Of a DNA stretch of 33,040 nucleotides, positions 12,067 to 26,118 are shown piece by piece. The notes beneath the pieces are model-generated. The model was not told the DNA's origin, did not search any database, and saw only the letters and a list, made by a program, of their open reading frames with translations. Both the position numbers and the translations under genes were made by a program. Position 1 is the stretch's first letter; each line of letters starts with the position of its first letter. Location of the stretch: NCBI GenBank assembly GCA_013694595.1, contig JACDCC010000148.1, forward strand, positions 1-33,040, written 5' to 3'. Source of the stretch: Chthoniobacterales bacterium (GTDB lineage: Bacteria > Verrucomicrobiota > Verrucomicrobiia > Chthoniobacterales > UBA10450).

Positions 12067-13188
12067 ATGGGGTCAAAAACGGTTCTGATTACGGGTGGGG
12101 CAGGGTTCGTAGGGTCACATCTCGCGGATCAATTGCTGGAGCACGGCTACAAAGTCCGCGCCTTGGATAATCTCGCGCCGCAGGTTCACGGTCCGTCCGC
12201 CGGCCGGCCGGAGTATCTCGCCGACGACGTGGAGCTCCAGATTGGCGACGTTCGCGATCGCGATGCCGTCGCGCGCGCGCTGGATGGAGTCGACGCGGTT
12301 TACCATTTTGCCGCCACGGTCGGGGTGGGGCAGAGCATGTATCAGATCGCCGAGTACACGAGCGTGAACGGCGAGGGCACTGCGGTGCTGCTGGAGGCTT
12401 TGGCGCAGAATCCGGTCGAGCGGCTGGTCGTCGCCTCGAGCATGAGCATTTACGGTGAAGGACTCTACGCCACCCGTAACGGTGAACTCGTGGAGGGGCA
12501 GGAACGCTCTCTCGAGCAACTAAAGGCGCACGATTGGGAAGTCCGCGGGCCGGACGGCGAGCCGCTTCAGCCAGTGCCGACACCGGAGTCGAAATGCCCG
12601 GCAGTCCCATCTGTCTACGCCATCTCGAAGTACCAGCAGGAACGCCTCTGCATGACGGTCGGCCGCGCGTACGGAATGGAAACGGTCGGGTTGCGCTTCT
12701 TCAACATCTACGGCACCCGCCAGGCGCTCTCGAATCCATACACCGGCGTGCTCGCGATCTTTGCCTCCAGGTTTCTGAACAACAATGCGCCGTTGATTAA
12801 CGAGGACGGCAAGCAGCAGCGCGATTTCGTGAGCGTGCACGATATTGCACAAGCTTGCCGGCTTGCGCTCGAAGTGCCTGATGCCGCCGATCGAGTGTTC
12901 AACGTCGGCAGCGGTCAGCGTTTTTCGATCCGGCAAATTGCCGACCAGATGGCAGACGTGCTCGGGAAGCCGGAAATCGAGCCGGAAGTCGTGGGGCGCT
13001 GCCGGGTGGGCGACATCCGTAATTGCTTTGCCGACATCACCTTGGCTCGGGATATTCTTGGCTACGCGCCTGCTGTGACATTGGAGGAAGGTTTGGTTGA
13101 GCTGGCGGAATGGCTCGAAGGCCAAACCGCAGTGGATAATGTCGCTGACGCTTCCCGCGAACTAGCCGCGCGAGGGCTCGCGGTATGA
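12067..13188 (+). CDS. NAD-dependent sugar epimerase/dehydratase (extended SDR)
   Basis: This 373-residue enzyme is the first gene of the thirteen-gene operon. It has the NAD-binding GGAGFVGSH (G10-H18), D34 for cofactor ribose binding, YHFAA at about 79, VASSMSIYG at 122-130 and the catalytic YAISK pair Y184/K188. Later come RFFNIYGTRQALSNPYTGV and the C-terminal FNVGSGQ and DI motifs. It acts on a nucleotide sugar such as UDP- or CDP-hexose; the exact reaction (4-epimerisation or similar) is not determined. About 45 residues between the SSM motif and YxxxK (about 132-180) are longer than in GalE. The ATG is preceded by AGGGAGG. Its stop overlaps the next start (ATGA). Confidence 0.88.
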   Translation: MGSKTVLITGGAGFVGSHLADQLLEHGYKVRALDNLAPQVHGPSAGRPEYLADDVELQIGDVRDRDAVARALDGVDAVYHFAATVGVGQSMYQIAEYTSVNGEGTAVLLEALAQNPVERLVVASSMSIYGEGLYATRNGELVEGQERSLEQLKAHDWEVRGPDGEPLQPVPTPESKCPAVPSVYAISKYQQERLCMTVGRAYGMETVGLRFFNIYGTRQALSNPYTGVLAIFASRFLNNNAPLINEDGKQQRDFVSVHDIAQACRLALEVPDAADRVFNVGSGQRFSIRQIADQMADVLGKPEIEPEVVGRCRVGDIRNCFADITLARDILGYAPAVTLEEGLVELAEWLEGQTAVDNVADASRELAARGLAV

Positions 13189-15197
13189 GCGGCCCCGCCA
13201 ATCGCCCTGTTTTCGGTGTCCTGGAATGGCTGCGCCCGGGCGAGGAAGAGCGCGTGGAACAGCTGCTCGGCGACCTGAAGGCAATCGGCGCGACGGAGCT
13301 TCGCACCGGCATCTCCTGGGCCGACTGGCATACGGCCGGCGGGCAGGATTGGTATGCGTGGCTGCTGCCGCGGCTGGCCAGCGAAGTGAACGTGCTGCCG
13401 TGCTTCCACTACACGCCGCCGACGCTCGGGATCGCACCGAACATCTGCTCGCCCCCGCGCGACCCGAAGCAATACGCCGATTTTCTCGACGTGTTCATCA
13501 CCCGCTTCGGTGAACACTTCGAATGGGTGGAGCTCTGGAATAAGCCGAAGAACCCCCTCGAGTGGGACACGACGCTGGACCCGAACTGGCTGATCTTTTG
13601 CGAGATGGTGGGTGGCGCGGCGCATTGGGCGCAGAAGCGCGGCAAAAAGACGGTCCTCGGCGCGAGCGGTCCGATGGATGCGCAATGGGTGGGTCTGATG
13701 TGCGACCGCGGCGTCCTGCAATACATCGATGCCGTCGGGATTCACGGGTTCCCCGGCACGTTCGAGTTCTGGTGGGACGGTTGGAACGCGAAAATCGCAC
13801 GCGTGCGCAACGTTCTCCTGCAGCACGGCTCGAAGGCGGAGATCTGGATTACAGAGACTGGTTACTCGACCTGGCGGCATGACGAGCGGGCGCAGATTGC
13901 TGCCTTTACCAACGTCATGGCTGCGCCCGCGGAGCGCGTCTACTGGTACGCGGCGCACGACATTGAGCCGGCACAAGCGATGGACGCCGTTTGCGCGGAC
14001 GAACGCGAATTCCATTTCGGACTTCGGCGCGCTGACGGTTCCGAGAAACTCCTGATGCGGCTGCTGCGTCAGGGCGGAGTTGAAGCTGTCAATCATCCGC
14101 CGTGGCTCGGCGACAAGGCGAAGAGCAACCCCTCGACGATCAAAAAACCGCCCGTGATGATCACCGGCGGCTCGGGATTTCTTGGGTGCAATCTCGCGCA
14201 TCGGCTCTGTTCCGAAGGCCAGCCAGTGCTGCTGTTCGATAACCTCTCCCGCGCCGGCGTGGAGCAAAACGCCGCGTGGCTTCGCGAAACGTACGGCGAC
14301 CTCGTGCAGGTGCAGGTGGCTGACATTCGCGACGCGCAGGCGCTCGGCGAAGCGGCGCAACGCTCTTCCGCCGTGTTTCACCTGGCGGCGCAGGTCGCGG
14401 TGACGAGCAGCCTCACAGCCCCGATCAATGATTTCGAGATCAACGCGCGCGGCACATTAAACCTGCTGGAAGCCCTGCGAGGGATGAGCAGCCCCCCGCC
14501 AGTCGTGTTCAATTCCACGAACAAAGTTTACGGCAGCCTCGATGATGTCGCCCTAAGGCTGAACGGCGCGCGCTACGAGCCCGACGACGAGCAAATCCGC
14601 GACAACGGAATTGGCGAGAATCAGCCGCTCGATTTCTACAGTCCCTACGGCTGCTCGAAAGGCGCGGCCGATCAGTACATCCTCGACTACGCGCGGACGT
14701 TCGGGTTACCGGCGGTCGTGTTCCGCATGAGTTGCATTTACGGGCCGCATCAGTTCGGCACGGAAGACCAGGGCTGGGTCGCACACTTCCTCATCCAGGC
14801 GATGAACAAGCGCTCCATCACGCTCTACGGAGACGGCAAACAGGTGCGTGACGTGTTGTTCGTGGAGGATCTCGTCGACGCGTTGCTGCTCGCGCGAAAG
14901 AATATCCGCACGCTTTCCGGCCAGGTCTTCAACCTCGGCGGCGGCCCGCAGAACACCACGTGCCTGCTGGAGTTGCTCGACTGGATCGGCGAACTCGACG
15001 GTGAGAAACCGCGCGTCTCGTGGGGCAATTGGCGCCCGGGCGATCAGCGCTACTACGTGAGCAACTTCTCGAAATTTCAGACTGCCACCGGCTGGAAGCC
15101 GAAAGTCGGAATGCGCGAAGGCGTGGAACGACTGCACGCGTGGCTGCGCGAATTCCGTTCCGCAAATGCGGCGCGCGAAGCTCTCGCCACCGCGTGA
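13185..15197 (+). CDS. Fusion: glycosidase-like TIM barrel + CDP-paratose/tyvelose 2-epimerase-like SDR
   Basis: This 670-residue protein has two parts. Residues 8 to about 300 form a GH39/GH5-like barrel in normal order: ELRTGISWADW at 38-48, FHYTPPTLGIAP at 74-85, the beta-4 motif VELWNKPKN at 115-123, IHGFP at 186-190, the nucleophile motif WITETG with E224, and VYWYAAHD at 252-259. The usual acid/base glutamate of WNEP is K120 (codon AAG at 13542-13544), so hydrolysis is unlikely. Residues from about 323 form an extended SDR very like Salmonella CDP-tyvelose 2-epimerase: GGSGFLG at 328-334, FNSTNKVYG, DFYSPYGCSKGAADQYILDY with catalytic Y and K, DQGWV and GKQVRDVLFVEDL. The epimerase inverts C2 of a CDP-dideoxyhexose in known relatives; here the sugar is unknown. 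The barrel may bind a glycan or nucleotide sugar. Confidence 0.85.
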   Translation: MSGPANRPVFGVLEWLRPGEEERVEQLLGDLKAIGATELRTGISWADWHTAGGQDWYAWLLPRLASEVNVLPCFHYTPPTLGIAPNICSPPRDPKQYADFLDVFITRFGEHFEWVELWNKPKNPLEWDTTLDPNWLIFCEMVGGAAHWAQKRGKKTVLGASGPMDAQWVGLMCDRGVLQYIDAVGIHGFPGTFEFWWDGWNAKIARVRNVLLQHGSKAEIWITETGYSTWRHDERAQIAAFTNVMAAPAERVYWYAAHDIEPAQAMDAVCADEREFHFGLRRADGSEKLLMRLLRQGGVEAVNHPPWLGDKAKSNPSTIKKPPVMITGGSGFLGCNLAHRLCSEGQPVLLFDNLSRAGVEQNAAWLRETYGDLVQVQVADIRDAQALGEAAQRSSAVFHLAAQVAVTSSLTAPINDFEINARGTLNLLEALRGMSSPPPVVFNSTNKVYGSLDDVALRLNGARYEPDDEQIRDNGIGENQPLDFYSPYGCSKGAADQYILDYARTFGLPAVVFRMSCIYGPHQFGTEDQGWVAHFLIQAMNKRSITLYGDGKQVRDVLFVEDLVDALLLARKNIRTLSGQVFNLGGGPQNTTCLLELLDWIGELDGEKPRVSWGNWRPGDQRYYVSNFSKFQTATGWKPKVGMREGVERLHAWLREFRSANAAREALATA

Positions 15198-16210
15198 TGG
15201 CGACCGACGCGCAAGCGCCGGTTGCACAGCGGAGTCGACCTGCCGTTTCGACGATGCGCGCCGCCATCATCGCGGAGCCGCAGCGCGTTGAAACTACCGA
15301 CGTGCCTGTGCCGGCTCCCGCCGCCGACCAAGTTCTCGTTAGGCTGGAAGGCTGCGGCGTTTGCGCCTCGAACATCCCGCCCTGGCAAGGCAAGCCGTGG
15401 TTTAATTATCCGATGTCGCCGGGTGCGCTCGGCCATGAAAGCTGGGGCCGTGTGGAAGCCGTCGGCGAGCAAGTGACGGACTTCGCGCCACGCGATCGCG
15501 TCGCGATGATCTCTAATAATGCCTATGCCGAATACGATGTCGCGGATGTCAGTGCGGTGGTGAAGCTCCCGGAGACATTAGACGACGAAGCATTCCCGGC
15601 GGAGCCGCTCGGCTGCGCGATGAACATTTTCAAGCGCGCGGCGATCCAGAAAAACGACACGGTGGCGATTGTCGGCATCGGGTTTCTCGGCGCACTTCTA
15701 ACACAGCTTGCGACCGCCGCCGGCGCGCGAGTGATTGCGATTTCCCGTCGTTCGTTTGCTTTGAACTTCGCTCGTGACATGGGCGCGGCGCATGTGGGCA
15801 CGATGGATGATCACCAAAAGATCATCGATGAAGTGAAGCGGCTGACCGATGGCAGGTTTTGCGATGTGGTGATCGAGGCCGTCGGTAAACAATGGCCGCT
15901 CGATTTGTCGGGTGAGCTGACGCGCGAACGCGGGCGCCTCGTCGTCGCTGGTTATCATCAAGACGGCCCCCGGCAGATAAACATGCAGCTGTGGAACTGG
16001 CGCGGGCTCGACGTGATCAACGCACATGAACGTGATCCGGCAATCTATCTCGAAGGCATGCGCGCGGCGGTGCGCGCGGTCGAGACCGGGCTGTTAAATC
16101 CGCGCCCACTCTACACGCACCATTTTCCGCTGGAGCAGCTTGGCGCAGCATTGAACATGAGCTCAGAGCGTCCTGACGGCTTCATGAAAGCGCTGATCCG
16201 GATGTCATGA
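15197..16210 (+). CDS. Zinc-type medium-chain dehydrogenase
   Basis: This 337-residue NAD(P)-dependent oxidoreductase of the MDR superfamily starts at an ATG that overlaps the previous stop (TGATG). M20 (MRAAIIAEP) is an alternative start that fits the conserved domain exactly. The catalytic zinc site is suggested by C56 (GCGVCASN) and H80-E81 (LGHESWG). The usual four-cysteine structural zinc lobe is absent. The Rossmann motif is VGIGFLG at 159-165. Relatives act on polyols, sugars or alcohols; within this operon, oxidation or reduction of a sugar, nucleotide sugar or inositol is plausible but not shown. The gene ends in an ATGA overlap with the next one, indicating translational coupling. 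Confidence 0.85.
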   Translation: MATDAQAPVAQRSRPAVSTMRAAIIAEPQRVETTDVPVPAPAADQVLVRLEGCGVCASNIPPWQGKPWFNYPMSPGALGHESWGRVEAVGEQVTDFAPRDRVAMISNNAYAEYDVADVSAVVKLPETLDDEAFPAEPLGCAMNIFKRAAIQKNDTVAIVGIGFLGALLTQLATAAGARVIAISRRSFALNFARDMGAAHVGTMDDHQKIIDEVKRLTDGRFCDVVIEAVGKQWPLDLSGELTRERGRLVVAGYHQDGPRQINMQLWNWRGLDVINAHERDPAIYLEGMRAAVRAVETGLLNPRPLYTHHFPLEQLGAALNMSSERPDGFMKALIRMS

Positions 16211-17310
16211 GCGGAGCACGTGAACCGCAGCGCATCTTGATGACGGCCGACACCGTCGGAGGCGTCTGGACCTACTCGATCGAGCTGATCCGTGCGTTGC
16301 CGCACATTGAATTCGCGCTGGCGACGATGGGCGCTCCGATCACGGCCGAGCAACGCGCCGAAGCTTCGCAGCTACCAAATGTGCAGCTGTTTCCGAGCAG
16401 CTATGCGCTCGAATGGATGGATGATCCATGGCAGGACGTCGATCGCGCCGGCGATTGGCTGCTGGAGATCGCGCGCTCGTTCAATCCCCACGTCGTCCAC
16501 CTGAACGGCTACGCGCATGCAAGCCTCCGGTGGGCGGCGCCCGTGCTCGTTGTCGCGCACTCGGATGTGCTCTCGTGGTGGGCAGCGGTGAAGAAATGCG
16601 AGGCGCCTCGCGGCTACTCCGAATATCGGAAGCGCGTGGCGGAGGGGCTGAACGCTGCAGACGTCGTCGTCGCGCCAACCGCGGCGATGTTGCGCTCGTT
16701 AGGCGAAAATTTCAGCTGGCGCGGTGACGGACGAGTCATTTGGAACGGACGTGATCCACAGCTCTTCTCGTCTGGGATTAAGCGAGACGTCATCTTCTCA
16801 GCCGGTCGGGCCTGGGACGAGGCGAAGAACCTCGCCGCGTTGGAAGCGGCGGCTCCGCAGGTCCGTTGGCCGATCGAAATAGCCGGCGACACCTCGCATC
16901 CGAATGGAGCGGAGCTGCAATTTAAGTACGTGCGTGCCTTGGGAAAGTTGCCGGGCCATCAGCTAGTGGAGCGGCTCGCAACGAGCGCGATTTACGCCCT
17001 GCCGGCGCGTTACGAGCCGTTCGGGCTCTCCGCACTAGAGGCGGCACTCTCCGGTTGCGCGTTGGTCCTCGGTGATGTTCCCTCGCTCCGCGAAGTGTGG
17101 GGCGATGCGGCGCGGTTTGTGGACGCAGATGATCACCATGCGCTGGCGGCAGCGTTGAACGCGCTGATCGACGACGTTGCCGAACGCGACAAGCTCGCGG
17201 ACCGCGCGCAGCGACGGGCAGCCGAGTTTTCGCCGCAGCGAATGGCGGCTGGTTACAACGCTGCGTATTCGGATTGCCTGACGCCGCGCGCCGTGGAGAT
17301 GGTCCCGTGA
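16207..17310 (+). CDS. Family 4 glycosyltransferase
   Basis: This is a 367-residue GT-B enzyme. The N-terminal domain begins RILMTADTVGGVWTYSIELI, the glycine loop of GT4 enzymes. The C-terminal domain has the EX7E motif in ARYEPFGLSALEAALSG, followed by the conserved GDVPSLREVWGDAARFV that binds the donor nucleotide-sugar. It is a retaining transferase moving a hexose from UDP-, GDP- or similar donors in the cytoplasm; donor and acceptor are unknown. It overlaps both neighbours by 4 nt. It is not closely related to the four CgeB-type enzymes that accompany it. Confidence 0.9.
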   Translation: MSGAREPQRILMTADTVGGVWTYSIELIRALPHIEFALATMGAPITAEQRAEASQLPNVQLFPSSYALEWMDDPWQDVDRAGDWLLEIARSFNPHVVHLNGYAHASLRWAAPVLVVAHSDVLSWWAAVKKCEAPRGYSEYRKRVAEGLNAADVVVAPTAAMLRSLGENFSWRGDGRVIWNGRDPQLFSSGIKRDVIFSAGRAWDEAKNLAALEAAAPQVRWPIEIAGDTSHPNGAELQFKYVRALGKLPGHQLVERLATSAIYALPARYEPFGLSALEAALSGCALVLGDVPSLREVWGDAARFVDADDHHALAAALNALIDDVAERDKLADRAQRRAAEFSPQRMAAGYNAAYSDCLTPRAVEMVP

Positions 17311-18398
17311 AGGTCGTTCTCTTCTACCACTCGCTCGTCTCCGATTGGAACCACGGCAACGCGCATTTCCTGCGCGGAGTCGCGACGGAGCTGATCACGC
17401 GGGGCCACGAAGTCACGATCTACGAACCGACGGATTCGTGGAGCCGGGAGAATCTTGTGCAGGAGCATGGCGAATCGCCAATTGCCGAGTTCCATCAGCG
17501 TTACCCAAACCTACGGTCCACGCGTTACCGACTCGAGGAGCTTGACCTGTCCGAGGCGTTGGCCGGCGCAGATCTCGTCATCGTGCACGAGTGGAACGAG
17601 CACGAGCTTGTGCGACGTGTTGGCAAACACCGCAAGGAGCACGGTGGCTATCGCTTGTTCTTTCACGATACGCATCACCGCGCGATCACTTCGCCGGCGC
17701 AGATGCAGGGATACGATCTGTCGAACTACGACGGTGTGCTCGCGTATGGCGAGGGTCTCCGTAAGATCTACGTGCAGCGCGATTGGGCGCGACGCGCCTG
17801 GACGTGGCACGAAGCCGCCGACACGCGGGTGTTTCAGCCGCTCCCGCGCGGTGATTTCGACGGCGACCTCGTGTGGATCGGCAACTGGGGCGACGAGGAG
17901 CGTTCCGCGGAGCTGCAGGAGTTTCTGATCGAGCCAGTGGCAGCGCTGGGACTGAGCGCGAAGGTTTTTGGCGTTCGTTATCCTGACACTGCGCGCGAGC
18001 TGCTGCGCCGAGCCGGGATCGAGTACTCCGGCTGGCTGCCGAACTACCGCGCCCCGGAGCTTTTCGCGCGCTACCGGATGACGGTGCACGTGCCGCGGCG
18101 CCCGTATGTGGAAGCGCTGCCTGGCATTCCGACGATTCGTCCATTCGAGGCGCTCGGGTGTGGCATCCCGTTGATCTGCTCGCCGTGGGATGATGCCGAG
18201 GGTCTGTTCACGCCAGGAAAAGATTTCGTCATCGCGCGCAATGCTGACGAAATGAAGAAGCACATGCGCGCGTTGCTCGAGGACAAACAGATGGCGCGCG
18301 AGCTTTCGGAGCACGGACTCCGCACGATTCAGCAGCGACATACCTGTGCACATCGCGTGGACGAACTGCTCAGCATCTACGAAGAAGTAAACACGTGA
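17307..18398 (+). CDS. CgeB-type glycosyltransferase 1
   Basis: This 363-residue GT-B glycosyltransferase resembles the CgeB (spore-coat glycan) family. The start is the GTG overlapping the previous stop (GTGA), with GGAG about 10 nt before it. It begins KVVLFYHSLVSDWNHGNAHF, a GT-B N-terminal loop shared with three paralogues downstream. A C-terminal Glyco_trans_1_2-like domain has GWLPNYRAPELFARYRM, IPTIRPFEALGCGIPLICSP and LFTPGKDF. The middle LFFHDTHHRAITSP suggests several histidines near the active-site cleft. Donor and acceptor are unknown. Confidence 0.85.
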   Translation: MKVVLFYHSLVSDWNHGNAHFLRGVATELITRGHEVTIYEPTDSWSRENLVQEHGESPIAEFHQRYPNLRSTRYRLEELDLSEALAGADLVIVHEWNEHELVRRVGKHRKEHGGYRLFFHDTHHRAITSPAQMQGYDLSNYDGVLAYGEGLRKIYVQRDWARRAWTWHEAADTRVFQPLPRGDFDGDLVWIGNWGDEERSAELQEFLIEPVAALGLSAKVFGVRYPDTARELLRRAGIEYSGWLPNYRAPELFARYRMTVHVPRRPYVEALPGIPTIRPFEALGCGIPLICSPWDDAEGLFTPGKDFVIARNADEMKKHMRALLEDKQMARELSEHGLRTIQQRHTCAHRVDELLSIYEEVNT

Positions 18399-19468
18399 AC
18401 ATCGCCTTCTTCGCTTCGAGCCTGCTCTCCGCCTATTGGAACGGCGCGGCCACTTACTACCGCGGCATCGTCAAGGCGCTGCATGCGAACGGCCATCGCA
18501 TCACGTTCTACGAGCCAATCGCGTACGATCGCCCGCAGCATCGTGACATTGAGCCGCCGAGCTGGTGTGATGTGGTCGTCTACGAGGGCACGGAAGAAGC
18601 GGCCTGGCGCCAAATCGAAGCAGCCCGCGGTGCGGACATGATCGTAAAGGCGAGCGGCGTCGGCATCTTCGACGAGCTGCTCGAGTCGGCCGTGCTAACG
18701 CTGAAGACGCCGAACAATCTTGTCATCTTCTGGGACGTCGATGCGCCGGCGACCCTCGACCGCATCGAAAGTGATGCCGCGGATGCGTTCCACGCGTGTA
18801 TTCCGCAATACGATTTCATCCTTACCTACGGCGGCGGCTTCCCGGTCGTGCGTGCTTACGAGTCGCACGGTGCGAAGCTGTGTGTGCCGATCTACAACGC
18901 GCTAGATCCGGACACGCACCACCCAGTGCCGCCGAACCCTAAATTTGAGCGAGATCTCGGGCTGCTCGCGAATCGCCTGCCGGACCGTGAACAGCGCGTC
19001 GAACAATTCTTCCTCAGCACGGCCGCGAAACTCCCGAAGCACAAGTTCCTCTTTGGCGGCAACGGCTGGGAGGACAAACCGATGACGCCGAACGTGCGTT
19101 ATCTCGGGCACGTTTACACCGCTGATCACAACGCGTTCAACTGCACCTGCCGCTCGGTGTTGAACATCTGCCGCGAAAGCATGGCCCGATACGGCTTCTC
19201 GCCGCCCACACGCGTGTTTGAAGCAGCGGGCGCAGCTGCTTGCTTGATCACTGATGCCTGGGAAGGCGTGGAGCAATTTTTTAAGCCCGATACTGAGGTC
19301 CTTGTCGCGCACGACGGCGACGAAGTCGCCCATCACGTGCAGAGTTTAACCAGTGAACGCGCACGCGAGATCGGCGACGCAGCGTATCGGCGGGTCCTGG
19401 CAGAGCACACGTATTCGCATCGCGCCAAGCAGGTGGAAGAAGTGCTTCAGGGAGCGACAGCGCGATGA
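18395..19468 (+). CDS. CgeB-type glycosyltransferase 2
   Basis: This 357-residue protein starts at a GTG in a GTGA overlap. The N-terminal loop FFASSLLSAYWNGAATYYRG and FWDVDAPATL are the counterparts of SWGNGHAT and [10 protein letters not shown] in the later paralogues. The C-terminal domain carries RYLGHVYTADHNAFNC, LNICRESMARYGFSPPTRVF and EAAGAAACLITDAWEGVEQF. It keeps the conserved RVFEAAG donor-binding helix. It is probably a cytoplasmic transferase that adds one sugar to a growing glycoside, acting next to its paralogues; specificity cannot be read. It is the most divergent of the group in its middle section. Confidence 0.82.
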   Translation: MNIAFFASSLLSAYWNGAATYYRGIVKALHANGHRITFYEPIAYDRPQHRDIEPPSWCDVVVYEGTEEAAWRQIEAARGADMIVKASGVGIFDELLESAVLTLKTPNNLVIFWDVDAPATLDRIESDAADAFHACIPQYDFILTYGGGFPVVRAYESHGAKLCVPIYNALDPDTHHPVPPNPKFERDLGLLANRLPDREQRVEQFFLSTAAKLPKHKFLFGGNGWEDKPMTPNVRYLGHVYTADHNAFNCTCRSVLNICRESMARYGFSPPTRVFEAAGAAACLITDAWEGVEQFFKPDTEVLVAHDGDEVAHHVQSLTSERAREIGDAAYRRVLAEHTYSHRAKQVEEVLQGATAR

Positions 19469-20565
19469 GGATCGTCATCCTCGGCCTGTCGATCACCTCT
19501 TCGTGGGGTAACGGCCACGCGACCACTTACCGCGCGTTGGTGCGTGAGCTTACCGCGACAGGGCACGATGTTTTGTTCCTGGAACGCGATCAGCCGTGGT
19601 ATGCGGAGAACCGCGATCTGCCGCAGCCGCCTTTTGGTGAAACGCAGCTCTACAAGAGCCTCACGCAGTTAAAGCGCCACTTCGCCAACGAGGTGCGGGA
19701 TGCGGACTGCGTGATCGTCGGCTCGTATGTGCCGGACGGCATCGCCGTGGGGGAGTGGGTGACGGCTCACGCGCACGGTGTCACGGCGTTTTACGACATC
19801 GACACTCCGGTTACACTGAGCGCCCTCGAGTGCGGCGACTGCGAATATCTCTCTGCTGAGTTGATCGCGCGTTACTCGCTGTATCTCTCATTCACCGGTG
19901 GCCCGACGCTCCGCAAGCTGGAGCGAGAATACGGGTCGCCCAAGGCTCGTGCGCTCTATTGCTCGGTTGATCCGGAGCTCTACTTTGCAGAACTCGTTCC
20001 ACCAAAGTGGGTGCTCGGTTATCTCGGCACCTACAGCGATGACCGCCAACCGACCGTCGATCGGCTGCTCCTCCAGCCTGCGGCGAAACTGCCGACGCAA
20101 CGCTTCGTTGTCGCCGGCCCGCAGTATCCGGATTCTATTCCGTGGCCGAAGAATGTGGAGCACATCACGCACCTGGAGCCCAAGAAACACCGGGCCTTTT
20201 ACAACGCGCAACGCTTCACGTTGAATGTCACTCGCGCCGACATGATTCGAGCCGGATTTTCGCCGAGCGTGCGGCTGTTCGAAGCAGCCGCCTGCGGCAC
20301 GCCGATCGTCAGCGATGAGTGGCCCGGTTTGAGCGAATTCTTCACGCCGGGCGAGGAGATTCTCATTGCTAGATCAACCGAAGATATGCTGGAGATTCTG
20401 CGTGAGATGTCAGACAGTGACGCTCGCGCGGTCGGTGAGCGTGCGCGCGAGCGAGTGCTCGCCGCGCATACTGCCGCGCACCGCGCCGCCGAGCTGGAGG
20501 GCTTCATCGAGGAGTGCCGGCATCAGTACGCGGAAAACGGCAGCGTTTGTGTGACAAAGGAGTGA
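19465..20565 (+). CDS. CgeB-type glycosyltransferase 3
   Basis: This 366-residue protein has an ATG overlapping the previous stop (ATGA). It begins [20 protein letters not shown] and contains [35 protein letters not shown] and [18 protein letters not shown]. The C-terminal donor site is [20 protein letters not shown] with [16 protein letters not shown]. It is clearly a paralogue of the gene at 21751, with the same block order and near-identical motifs. Its last codons carry the AAGGAG ribosome binding site of the inositol-phosphate synthase gene. It is predicted to transfer a sugar in the cytoplasm. Confidence 0.87.
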
Positions 20566-20569
20566 CAAC

Positions 20570-21754
20570 ATGAAAGACAAAATCCGCGTTGGAATCATTG
20601 GAGTGGGCAACTGCGCTTCCTCGCTCGTGCAAGGCATCGAGTTCTACCGCAATGCGAACCCTGACGAGTTCGTGCCGGGCTTGATGCATGTCGAACTCGG
20701 CGGCTATCACATCCGCGACATCGAGTTCAGTGCGGCTTTCGACATCGCGGCCACAAAGGTGGGGCGCGATCTCGGCGAAGCGATTTTCGCGGAGCCGAAC
20801 AACACCATTAAGTTCGCCGACTTGCCGAAGCTGGATGTGAAGGTGCACCGCGGCATGACGCACGACGGCTTGGGGAAGTACCTTAAGAAGGTCGTAAAAA
20901 AGTCGCCGGCTTCTACCGACGACATTGTCGGTATTCTGAAAAAGACGAAGACGGATGTGGTTGTCTCGTACCTGCCGGTGGGCTCCGAGATGGCTACGAA
21001 GTGGTATGTCGAGCAGATCCTGGATGCCGGCTGCGGCTTCATTAACTGCGTGCCCGTGTTCATTGCTTCGCAGCCTTACTGGCAGCGGCGCTTCGAGGAG
21101 CGGAAGCTTCCGATCATCGGCGACGACATCAAGTCGCAGGTCGGTGCAACGATTTCGCATCGCGTGATGACGAATCTGTTCCGCGAGCGGGGCGTCCGTC
21201 TGGATCGTACTTATCAACTGAACTTCGGCGGCAACACCGACTTCTTGAACATGCTCGAGCGCGAGCGGCTTGAGTCGAAGAAGATTTCCAAAACCCAAGC
21301 CGTCACCAGCCAGCTCGGCCACGCGATGCCCGCGAAGGATGTGCATGTCGGACCGAGCGATTACGTGCCGTGGCTGACTGATCGGAAGTGGTGCTACATT
21401 CGGATGGAAGGCACGACATTCGGCAACGTGCCGCTAAACTGCGAGATGAAGCTCGAGGTGTGGGATTCGCCGAACTCCGCGGGCGTCGTGATCGACGCGA
21501 TCCGGTGCGCCAAACTCGCGCTCGACCGCGGCCTCTCCGGTTCGCTTGTCGCGCCATCGAGCTACTTCATGAAATCGCCGCCGGTGCAGTTCACCGACGA
21601 CGAAGCGCGCACGAAAACCGAGGAATTCATCAAAGGCGATGACTCAGTCGTGTTACCCGGCCCGCTGAAACGCACGAGCAACGGCAACGGCAGCGGCAAC
21701 GGCCAGCGCAAAGCAGCGAAGAAGACGAAGAACGGCACCAAGTCGAAACGATGA
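20570..21754 (+). CDS. ino1: myo-Inositol-1(3)-phosphate synthase
   Basis: This 394-residue enzyme converts glucose 6-phosphate to inositol phosphate with bound NAD, the only de novo route to inositol. Family motifs are [16 protein letters not shown] at 7-22 (NAD binding), [58 protein letters not shown] and [12 protein letters not shown] with the conserved lysines. The length fits the short actinobacterial/archaeal form rather than the eukaryotic form of about 510 residues. The last 25 residues are a low-complexity N/G/K tail (about 369-394) that looks disordered. AAGGAG at 20557-20562 is an excellent ribosome binding site 7 nt from the ATG. The gene sits between two paralogous glycosyltransferases, so inositol is probably a building block of the product. 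Confidence 0.93.
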
Positions 21755-22833
21755 AGCTCGTTGTCTTCGGCCTCACGATTAGTTCGTCGTGGGGCAATGG
21801 ACACGCGACTTTGTTGCGGGCGCTGTTTCGGCAGCTGATCGCCCGCGGCTACTACATCATTTTCTTCGAGCACGATGTTCCGTACTACGCGGCGCATCGC
21901 GATTTGCATGAGCTGCCCGGCGGCAAGCTTGTTTTCTACAGCTCGTGGGAAGAAGCGATCAGCACGGCGCGGCATGAGCTCTCCGATGCCGACGCCGCAA
22001 TGGTCACTTCTTATTGTCCCGACGGCATCGCGGCTTCGGAACTAATCGGCGCGTCTTCTGCGCTCCGCGTGTTCTACGACATGGACACTCCTGTCACGTT
22101 GTCGAAGCTACGCGCGGGCGAGCCGCTGACGTATATTGATTCACGCGGGCTCGGCGAATTCGATCTCGTCTTGAGTTTTACTGGCGGAGGCGCGCTCACG
22201 GCGCTGCAGGAAGAACTCGGAGCGCGCAAAGTGGCTCCGCTCTACGGCAGCGTGGATCTGGATCTTTATCATCCCGTCGCTGCGCAGGAGCAGTATCGGG
22301 CCGCGTTCTCTTACCTCGGCACGTACGCCGCCGATCGTCAGCCGGCGCTTGAGCGCCTGTTCATCGAACCAGCGCGTCGGTTGCCGGAACAACGCTTCGC
22401 GATTGGCGGCGCGCAGTACCCGGCCGAGTTCCCGTGGGCGCCGAACATCTTCTTCCAACGCCACCTCGCGCCGGCAGAGCACGCTGCGTTTTTCTGCTCC
22501 TCGCGCCTGACGCTGAATGTGACGCGCGACACGATGCGATCGATGGGGTGGTGCCCGTCCGGGCGGTTATTCGAGGCGTCAGCGTGTGGTGTGCCGATGG
22601 TGAGCGACACGTGGGACGGACTCGACGAGTTCTTTACGCCCGGGGACGAGATCCTGACCGCGCAAACCACCGACGACGCACTGAACGCCCTGCAACTAAG
22701 CAATGCGGAGCTTTCGAGGATCGCAGCTGCAGCGAGAGAACGAACACTGACCGAACACACCGCGCAGCGGCGTTCCGAACAGCTCGAGGAGTTCTTCGTC
22801 ACCGCTCGCCAATCGGAGGCTGTAGCCGCCTGA
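21751..22833 (+). CDS. CgeB-type glycosyltransferase 4
   Basis: This 360-residue paralogue of the gene at 19465 begins [19 protein letters not shown], with [84 protein letters not shown] and [18 protein letters not shown]. The two differ enough to have distinct substrates. The start overlaps the inositol synthase stop (ATGA). The duplication probably arose locally, with the synthase gene now between the copies. It is a likely retaining GT-B enzyme acting in the cytoplasm. Confidence 0.87.
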
Positions 22834-23581: not shown

Positions 23582-24367
23582 ATGGACACAGTAACCGCGA
23601 TGAGTCCCGCTGAGACGCAGGAGCGGATCGATGAGTTTGGTGCGTGGTTCCAGAACCTGGAGCTGAACGGCGTGCAAACGGCGCCGCAGCATTTTCTCGG
23701 TGATTATCCTGCGGTGAAGTTCGCCGGCTTCGCACATGCGTTGCCTGACGACCTGACGGGCAAGAGCGTGCTCGATATTGGCTGCAACGCGGGCTTTTAC
23801 TCGCTGGAGATGAAACGGCGGGGCGCCTCCCGTGTGCTGGGCGTGGACTTCGATGAACGCTATCTGGCGCAGGCTCGGTTCGCGGCTGAAGTGCACGGCG
23901 TCGACATCGAATTCCGGCAACTGTCGGTCTACGACGTCGGCACGCTCGGCGAGAAGTTCGACCTCGTGATCTTCATGGGCGTGCTCTACCACCTGCGCCA
24001 TCCGCTGCTCGCGCTCGATCTCATTCGCGAGCACGTCGCGAAGGATCTGATGCTGTTTCAATCGATGCAGCGCGGCAGCGAAGACGCGATGCAGGTCGAA
24101 GCGGACTATGACTTCTGGCAGACGGAGATGTTCGCGCGGCCCGACTTCCCGGTGATGTATTTCATCGAGCATAAATACGCCGGCGATCCGACAAACTGGT
24201 GGATCCCGAATCGCGCGTGCACGGAAGCAATGCTGCGGAGTTCCGGGTTCGATATCATCGCGCATCCTGAAAATGAGGTTTTCGTCTGCAAAGTTCGCGC
24301 GGCCGACAACGAGAGCGACCTCACGCGTGCGACCCGCCAGGCGAAGGAATCGCTCCGCGCTTCGTGA
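23582..24367 (+). CDS. SAM-dependent methyltransferase (TIGR04290/Rta_06860-like)
   Basis: This 261-residue methyltransferase has WFQNLELNGVQTAPQHFLGD at 22-41, motif I VLDIGCNAGFYSLEMKRRGA at 63-82, VLGVDFDERYL at 85-95, and FDLVIFMGVLYHLRHPLLAL. The C-terminal part contains MYFIEHKYAGDPTNWWIPNR. The general fold resembles CmoB-type enzymes. From memory this matches the family named TIGR04290, which tends to sit in glycan clusters such as this one; I could not verify that. It would methylate a sugar or inositol hydroxyl (inference). It starts 2 nt after the previous stop. It is followed by the only sizeable gap within the operon, which holds a palindromic repeat. Confidence 0.85.
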   Translation: MDTVTAMSPAETQERIDEFGAWFQNLELNGVQTAPQHFLGDYPAVKFAGFAHALPDDLTGKSVLDIGCNAGFYSLEMKRRGASRVLGVDFDERYLAQARFAAEVHGVDIEFRQLSVYDVGTLGEKFDLVIFMGVLYHLRHPLLALDLIREHVAKDLMLFQSMQRGSEDAMQVEADYDFWQTEMFARPDFPVMYFIEHKYAGDPTNWWIPNRACTEAMLRSSGFDIIAHPENEVFVCKVRAADNESDLTRATRQAKESLRAS

Positions 24368-24395: not shown

Positions 24396-24490
24396 TGTCA
24401 TTCCGAGCGAAGCCGACGAATCCGGTGGACTCTCCTTGACGGTTCCGCCACGGGGTTCCTCCACTGCGCTTCGCTCCGGTCGAAATGACA
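24396..24490. repeat. Palindromic repeat inside the operon (GTCATTCCGAG family)
   Basis: This 95-bp element is bounded by TGTCATT (24396-24402) and AATGACA (24484-24490), with imperfect inverted arms containing CCGAGCGAAGC and GCGCTTCGCTCCGG. A related element lies at 30574-30665. It contains no coding capacity. It lies between the methyltransferase and barrel genes and could be a transcript-processing or attenuation point, or just a neutral insertion. Confidence 0.65.
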
Positions 24491-24523
24491 GCGGAGTTGC
24501 GCACGAGGAGAACGGGGGGCGAA

Positions 24524-25435
24524 ATGGTTGAAGCGGTCATGCTCTGGAACGAGCCGAACAACAAGTCGCACTGGGACAATGCGCTCGACCCGGAGTGGCG
24601 GCAGTTCGGCGAGATGGTGAATCTCGCCGCGCGAGCGATTGCGGCGGAGAACGATACTGTCCTGCGCGTGCTCGGTGGGATGTCGCCGATCGACGCCGGC
24701 TGGATCAAACGCATGGAGGAATTCGGCGTGTTGGAGACGCTTGATGCCGTGGCGGTGCACGGCTTCCCGCTCGACTGGAACAACTGGATGCTCGACGAAT
24801 GGCCGAACTGGCTCCGTGAGATCCAGGCCGTCACGGATTTGCCCGTCTGGGTTTCCGAAGTCGGGATCTCGACTTTCGGCGCGGAGGAAGTGCAGGAGTT
24901 CGGCTTACGTCGAACGGCCGAGCTGCTGATCGGGCGTGCGCCGCGCATTCATTGGTATTCGCTTTACGATTTACCAGCCGCCTGGCCCGCGACCACGCGT
25001 CACAAGGAGGCGGAGGGTTCCTCCTATTACCGCCACTTCCACATGGGCCTGCTGCGTGAGGATGGCACGCCGAAGAAAGCGCTGCAGCATTTCAGCGAGT
25101 TCACTCCGGAGCTCGGGATTTGTCAGTGGTTCCACTTTGAAGATCATCGGCTCGACGACGCGGTCAGATGGCTGCGCGAGCTCGGGGTGAAACATCTGCG
25201 CACCGGCTTGAGCTGGGCGGATAGCTTTCGACCGAACGCTGACGCCTGGTTCGACCGGCAGATGGCGGCGCTGGAGGAGTTTGATGTCACGATCACCTAC
25301 TGTTTCACGCCGGAGCACCGAGGGATTGCGCCGCACCACACGAGTCCGCCGTTGGTGAACGAGGAGTACGCGGAATTCTGTGCGCGGATGACGCGTCGTT
25401 ACGTTCCGCAGCGTTCTGTCGCTACTTCGACGTAG
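24524..25435 (+). CDS. Glycosidase-like TIM barrel with swapped halves (circular permutation)
   Basis: This 303-residue protein starts at the ATG at 24524, preceded by GGGGGG; an ATG at 24485 lies inside the palindromic repeat and is less likely. The first half carries the later strands of a GH39-like barrel: beta-4 MLWNEPNN with acid/base E10, VHGFPLDWNNW at 78-88, nucleophile motif VWVSEVG with E112, and IHWYSLYDL at 142-150. The second half carries the early strands: VKHLRTGLSWADS at 222-234 and FTPEHRGIAPHHTSPP at 261-276. In the fusion protein at 13185 the same motifs come in the opposite order. Both catalytic glutamates are present, so it may be an active glycosidase or transglycosidase. 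There is no signal peptide, so it acts in the cytoplasm. Confidence 0.8.
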   Translation: MVEAVMLWNEPNNKSHWDNALDPEWRQFGEMVNLAARAIAAENDTVLRVLGGMSPIDAGWIKRMEEFGVLETLDAVAVHGFPLDWNNWMLDEWPNWLREIQAVTDLPVWVSEVGISTFGAEEVQEFGLRRTAELLIGRAPRIHWYSLYDLPAAWPATTRHKEAEGSSYYRHFHMGLLREDGTPKKALQHFSEFTPELGICQWFHFEDHRLDDAVRWLRELGVKHLRTGLSWADSFRPNADAWFDRQMAALEEFDVTITYCFTPEHRGIAPHHTSPPLVNEEYAEFCARMTRRYVPQRSVATST

Positions 25436-25491
25436 CAGGCCAGGCGCAGACAGCCGCGCGGTGCAGAGTGGCGCAAGCGCGGCAGGAGTTC

Positions 25492-26118
25492 ATGACCACC
25501 AATTTCCTCTTCATCCGCCACGGAGCACACGATTACCTCGGCCGAGCGATTGCCGGACGGCTTGCTGGCGTGCACTTGAACGAGCTCGGCCGCCAGCAGG
25601 CGGAGCATCTGGCAGAGAAGCTTTCGCTGCTGCCGGTCGATGCGATTTTCAGCGGGCCGCTCGAGCGGGTGCGCGAAACTGCGGAGCCGATCTGCCGTCA
25701 GTTCGGCCTCTCGTCGCAAGTCGACGAAGGATTCACCGAAATCGGGCTGGGCGGCTGGGAAGATCGGCCGTTCACCGAACTGGCGGGAGAGCCGTTGTGG
25801 GATCGGTTTAACCGCTTCCGGAGCAGCACCGCGGCCGACGGCGGCGAGCTGATGCTCGAGGTGCAGGCGCGTGCGGTGCGGAAGTTAATTGAGCTTCGCG
25901 GCCAGTACCGCTTCGTGGTGATCGTCACCCATGGTGACGTGGTCCGCGCAGTGATGGCGCATTTCCTCGGCATTCATCTCGATCTTTTCTTCCGCCTGGA
26001 AATCGATCCCGCGTCGCTCAGCCTCGTTGAGTTAGGCGACGATTTTGCGCGTGTGCGACTGCTGAACGCGCCGGGCGAAGGATCCCCGCTGGTGCTGCCG
26101 GCCATTCGCCACCAGTGA
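25492..26118 (+). CDS. Histidine phosphatase (phosphoglycerate mutase-like)
   Basis: This 208-residue enzyme has the phospho-accepting FLFIRHG with H10, a second arginine and glutamate in SGPLERVRETAEP, GWEDRPF, and the second catalytic histidine in IVTHGDVVRAV. This branch includes small-molecule phosphatases such as those acting on ribazole phosphate or glucosyl-3-phosphoglycerate. In this operon it could remove phosphate from inositol phosphate or a glycosylated phosphate intermediate; that is inference. The ATG at 25492 follows AGGAG at a good distance and is preferred over the GTG at 25468. It is the last gene of the series. A separate remnant of a sister gene lies 0.8 kb downstream. Confidence 0.88.
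   Translation: MTTNFLFIRHGAHDYLGRAIAGRLAGVHLNELGRQQAEHLAEKLSLLPVDAIFSGPLERVRETAEPICRQFGLSSQVDEGFTEIGLGGWEDRPFTELAGEPLWDRFNRFRSSTAADGGELMLEVQARAVRKLIELRGQYRFVVIVTHGDVVRAVMAHFLGIHLDLFFRLEIDPASLSLVELGDDFARVRLLNAPGEGSPLVLPAIRHQ

Follow-up and report, generated by a model that had tools for sequence, protein, structure and literature searches.

The DNA analyzed here, hereafter called the window, is a stretch of 33,040 nucleotides from a Chthoniobacterales (Verrucomicrobiota) MAG, which carries a gene cluster on the plus strand. The first SDR of the cluster, an NAD-dependent epimerase (12067..13188; PF01370, 2.6e-52), has a stop codon overlapping the start of an open reading frame of 670 amino acids (13185-15197) that encodes a fusion of a barrel with a second epimerase. 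This fusion is followed by a zinc-type alcohol dehydrogenase (15200..16210; PF00107, 8.7e-19; PF08240, 1.9e-10) and four glycosyltransferase genes (16207..20565), one GT4 and three CgeB-like, of which the first three match PF13692 and PF13524 and the fourth occupies the same place in other clusters. Further along lie inositol-3-phosphate synthase (20570..21754; TIGR03450, E 2.7e-164, 546 bits, below the cut-off of 638), another CgeB-like glycosyltransferase (21751..22833) whose position is conserved in related clusters, a methyltransferase of the TIGR04290 family (23582..24367; 390 bits vs. a cut-off of 300) that marks the neighborhood, a standalone barrel considered below, and a histidine-phosphatase family protein (25468..26118; TIGR03848, E 2.8e-50, below its cut-off). 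The methyltransferase, the SDR genes and the CgeB-like glycosyltransferases together identify the TIGR04290 neighborhood, the same gene set of which recurs in other phyla; our literature search found no paper naming this gene cluster.

The C-terminal domain of the fusion (residues 322-658, 14148..15158) is an extended SDR (PF01370, 8.9e-48) and resembles CDP-tyvelose 2-epimerases, as the initial annotation had proposed. In the AlphaFold2 model of the fusion (pLDDT 86), this domain superposes on RfbE (PDB 1orr) with a Z score of 43.4 and an rmsd of 1.7 over 330 aligned residues at 43% identity, and it matches the Thermodesulfatator atlanticus enzyme TaTyvE (PDB 9rl0) with E 1e-82. Its Thr445, Tyr488 and Lys492 correspond to Thr124, Tyr164 and Lys168 of TaTyvE, the catalytic trio of that enzyme (PMC13098431), which is thus retained. 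The known CDP-tyvelose 2-epimerases, unlike the protein encoded in the window, have no N-terminal barrel. A fold search with the full-length fusion returned epimerases only among the matches listed, and hence was uninformative on the family of the barrel. Opposite the barrel there is also an antisense open frame of 439 amino acids (13062-14381, minus strand), which probably arises simply from the codon composition of this GC-rich DNA.

The N-terminal barrel (residues ~1-309, 13185..14113) gave no Pfam or NCBIfam hit and none above a curated glycosidase cut-off, and its eight strands were recognized in the AlphaFold2 model. A profile built from 23 fused barrels (alignment A7) matched PslG with E 8.9e-5 over fused-barrel residues 21-269, a similarity that is remote. 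PslG is an intracellular GH39 endoglycosidase encoded in the glycan-synthesis cluster for the Psl exopolysaccharide of Pseudomonas aeruginosa (PDB 4zn2 and 5bx9), and E165 and E276 form its catalytic pair (PMC6813494); these residues are chain positions 139 and 250, to which 26 is added. The window's barrel shares with PslG its general layout, the acid/base site (WNEP in PslG) after strand 4, the nucleophile glutamate after strand 7 and the location of the gene in a glycan-synthesis cluster. In the profile alignment, fusion position 224 falls on the nucleophile E276 and is a glutamate (GAG, 13854..13856, motif ITETGYSTW), whereas position 120 falls on the acid/base E165 and is a lysine (AAG, 13542..13544, motif ELWNKPKN). 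Hence, the barrel is GH39/PslG-like by its similarity to a characterized member and by its nucleophile, but differs from PslG in having lost the acid/base glutamate as well as in being fused to an epimerase.

Both the lysine and the retained nucleophile had been pointed out in the initial annotation, together with the proposal to inspect the same residue in homologous fusions. This comparison, which has now been carried out, shows that glutamate is not universal at the site: position 120 is lysine in all nine distinct fusions of the window's clade (hereafter the Lys clade) and glutamate in all 76 other fusions. The Lys clade comprises nine species-level genomes of soil bacteria drawn from several assemblies and sequencing projects, while the fusions in general range over Bacteroidota, Geobacteraceae, Cyanobacteria, Armatimonadota, Proteobacteria and other groups. 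The codons AAG and GAG differ by a single base, so that a sequencing error or a private mutation might be suspected; the lysine is nevertheless shared by all nine genomes of the clade, where the residue next to it takes three different identities, and neither explanation therefore holds, the likelihood that we still attach to them being negligible. Other changes accompany the lysine. Position 122, asparagine in 76/76 other fusions, is Lys, Arg or Asn within the Lys clade, and the Gly-Met-Ser that follows barrel strand 5 is replaced by the clade-specific A160-S161-G162 (13662..13670), with Gly at position 160 in 76/76 other fusions and Ala, like S161-G162, in 9/9 of the Lys clade. Among the fusions with glutamate, that of a Xanthomonas sacchari plasmid (L016, 12001-12884) has its barrel split over two frames by a frameshift, either real or due to sequencing error, with WNEP intact.

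It is thus well supported by the sequence comparisons that the Lys barrel would no longer work as a classical two-glutamate glycosidase. The initial annotation had linked this change to the fusion with the epimerase, an explanation that we rejected because the 76 other fusions, from many phyla, keep Glu120. The lysine correlates better with the presence, within the cluster, of a paralogue that is circularly permuted and has both glutamates. This is the standalone GH39-like barrel mentioned above (24485..25435, plus strand), the first part of which is similar to residues 109-288 of the fusion and the last part to residues 8-108. The profile of its family likewise matches PslG in two swapped pieces (E 1.5e-5), with query residues 202-297 on chain positions 25-130 and query residues 4-186 on chain positions 131-319. 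Strands 4-8 therefore stand ahead of strands 1-3, in departure from the canonical order and unlike PslG, which is not permuted. Both catalytic glutamates are present, E23 (24551..24553) at the acid/base position of PslG E165 and E125 (24857..24859) at the nucleophile position of E276, and both are invariant in the alignment of the family (A3). The predicted structure (pLDDT 75, pTM 0.77) forms a complete barrel, and a Foldseek search with it retrieved an assortment of barrel enzymes that pointed to no clear family. Its relatives among other Verrucomicrobiota and Alphaproteobacteria are 68-86% identical and all have both glutamates; elsewhere such permuted barrels are labelled 'beta-xylosidase' or hypothetical, and often lie beside a TIGR04290 methyltransferase.

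The two kinds of barrel are distributed in a distinctive way. Permuted-barrel clusters of Azospirillum, Sinorhizobium, Roseomonas and Bradyrhizobium contain an SDR that is 53-59% identical to that of the window and carries no barrel, and the cluster SDR of other Chthoniobacterales with the permuted barrel likewise has no fused barrel. Tistrella, Rhizobium, Xanthomonas and Agrobacterium, on the other hand, have the fused barrel with glutamate and no permuted barrel nearby. Among 289 Alphaproteobacteria, five have the permuted form only, seven the fused form only and none both. In a quick tree of the SDR, the sequences of the Lys clade group with the unfused ones of Chthoniobacterales (SH-aLRT 99), close to the fused SDRs of cyanobacteria and armatimonads, so that this tree is more simply explained if the fused barrel was lost. 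Leftovers of a lost barrel were looked for ahead of the unfused SDRs and none was seen. A third arrangement is found in Chthoniobacterales, namely a standalone, unpermuted WNEP barrel that shares about 39% identity with the fused one and is located in the same cluster type (L107, L108 and L109, corresponding to G143, G036 and G144).

In the window and in 7/7 other genomes of the Lys clade that were reached through their loci, the permuted barrel is present with both glutamates. We searched and aligned 78 other fusion-bearing genomes, finding the permuted barrel in these seven and in nine others, and none in 62, several of the searched genomes being incomplete MAGs for which absence is weaker evidence. 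Three of the nine permuted-barrel genomes outside the clade, an Ignavibacteria (L080), a Bacteroidota (L088) and Hymenobacter cavernae (L052), have an E224A substitution in their fusion, which keeps the acid/base glutamate; they are the sole fusions outside the clade that lack a catalytic glutamate. None of the fusions in the 62 genomes without the permuted barrel has lost E120 or E224. The probability of obtaining 3/9 vs. 0/62 by chance is about 0.0015, by a hypergeometric calculation done by hand as simple counting that ignores kinship, and the independent losses of a glutamate are few, about three. The permuted gene and the fusion are in the same cluster in L080 and on different contigs, each among cluster genes, in L088.

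The remaining six genomes have the permuted barrel together with a fused barrel that retains both glutamates. The permuted copy thus does not force the loss, and we rejected it as a sufficient cause. In the three of these six genomes for which the permuted locus was retrieved, that locus is outside the main cluster. At L204, L205 and L206 the permuted barrel is separate from the main cluster and has a histidine-phosphatase gene within a few kilobases. In the two Rufibacter genomes (L083 and L086), which have the permuted barrel too, the fused barrel keeps both glutamates and shows the changes Y76E, P79A/I, W148V and Y255S.

The constraint acting on the fused barrel was then evaluated from sites that are invariant in half of the 62 genomes lacking the permuted copy, scored on the remaining ones. 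Violations at these sites of the barrel amount to 1.1% in the held-out genomes without the permuted copy, 10.4% in the Lys clade and 5.0% in the other genomes with the permuted copy; the equivalent values for the SDR are 0.8%, 1.7% and 0.5%. Because violations are raised in the barrel but not in the SDR, the relaxation is confined to the barrel and does not involve the whole protein. This increase, together with the loss of the barrel in close relatives, would fit a relaxed and non-functional remnant whose sole reason for persisting would be its in-frame junction to the epimerase. However, Nei-Gojobori estimates of dN/dS in the Lys clade, which are rough given the high dS, range between 0.04 and 0.09 in the barrel and between 0.04 and 0.13 in the SDR, so that purifying selection on the Lys barrel is as strong as that on the epimerase, and the frame of the fusion is open in all members of the clade. 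Decay of the fused barrel is thus unsupported by its low dN/dS, and we regard the remnant as very improbable. Given such strong purifying selection, the Lys barrel may serve in binding or in substrate presentation, as the initial annotation had suggested.

The same low dN/dS would also be expected of an enzyme with altered chemistry, in which E224 would act as nucleophile or base while K120 and Lys or Arg at position 122 would bind or activate an acidic leaving group such as phosphate or a nucleotide. E224 is indeed retained, as are most of the other conserved residues, and several changes in the active site are common to the whole clade, as if they had been co-selected. Within the clade, however, Y255, Y276, L260 and D128 drift in a way that is unlike a tuned active site, and the E224A fusions found elsewhere indicate that catalysis can be lost altogether from the fused barrel. 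We thus consider altered chemistry unlikely; the other mechanism that the initial annotation had offered as an alternative is conceivable but unsupported.

Alternatively, the Lys barrel might be a dead partner subunit that binds the permuted barrel and activates or positions it, both proteins being required. The joint conservation of the fused and permuted barrels in the clade would agree with this possibility, for which other enzymes offer a precedent, an active enzyme being switched on by a catalytically dead paralogue (PMC5201418). Most clusters with the permuted barrel nevertheless have no fused barrel, which indicates that the permuted barrel does not generally depend on the fused one; we judge an obligatory partnership of this kind to be rather improbable.

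The loss of one catalytic glutamate in the Lys barrel has a parallel in the pseudo-glycosidases of the Klotho type, glycosidase barrels that likewise lack one such residue and are kept for binding; these are, however, animal membrane proteins of the GH1 family, and their residues and context differ from those of the Lys barrel. In the GH70 glucansucrases, compared with GH13, a glycosidase barrel has been circularly permuted in nature, as in the permuted barrel of the window, although in another clan and with another cut point. The GH39-like permutant is opened before strand 4 and shares its cluster type with the unpermuted form. Literature searches for a fusion of this kind, for glycosidases with a permuted barrel and for Klotho yielded nothing directly useful.

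The explanation that we favor, and hold to be fairly probable, is that the permuted barrel has taken over catalysis and the fused barrel has been kept as a non-hydrolytic pseudo-glycosidase. In this scheme, which we infer from sequence comparisons, the biosynthetic sugar cluster would normally have one GH39-like barrel bearing two catalytic glutamates, located in most lineages at the N-terminus of the CDP-tyvelose 2-epimerase-like SDR and in others present as the standalone permuted version. In the window's clade, the two-glutamate permuted barrel of the same cluster would most likely perform the glycoside chemistry. The fused barrel would have lost its acid/base residue by E120K, along with N122K/R and the change of G160-M161-S162 to Ala-Ser-Gly, and with it presumably hydrolysis, persisting as a folded pseudo-glycosidase under purifying selection. 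It would probably have been retained to support the epimerase structurally or to regulate it, to bind a ligand or to act as a partner of the permuted barrel.

A broader interpretation, which may apply but which we put forward only tentatively, is that in this widespread sugar cluster the naturally permuted GH39-like barrel has time and again replaced the unpermuted form fused to the epimerase; the window's clade would then be an intermediate, in which the lysine-bearing pseudo-glycosidase under purifying selection would have a new, non-hydrolytic role. Clusters of this type occur in many phyla, with permuted barrels that go under the names 'beta-xylosidase' or hypothetical, and the Lys clade helps in telling which barrel would carry the chemistry. 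It may thus be viewed as a natural experiment, in which the presence of a permuted relative would allow an enzyme domain to turn into a conserved pseudoenzyme, and it cautions against labelling every such fusion a glycosidase.
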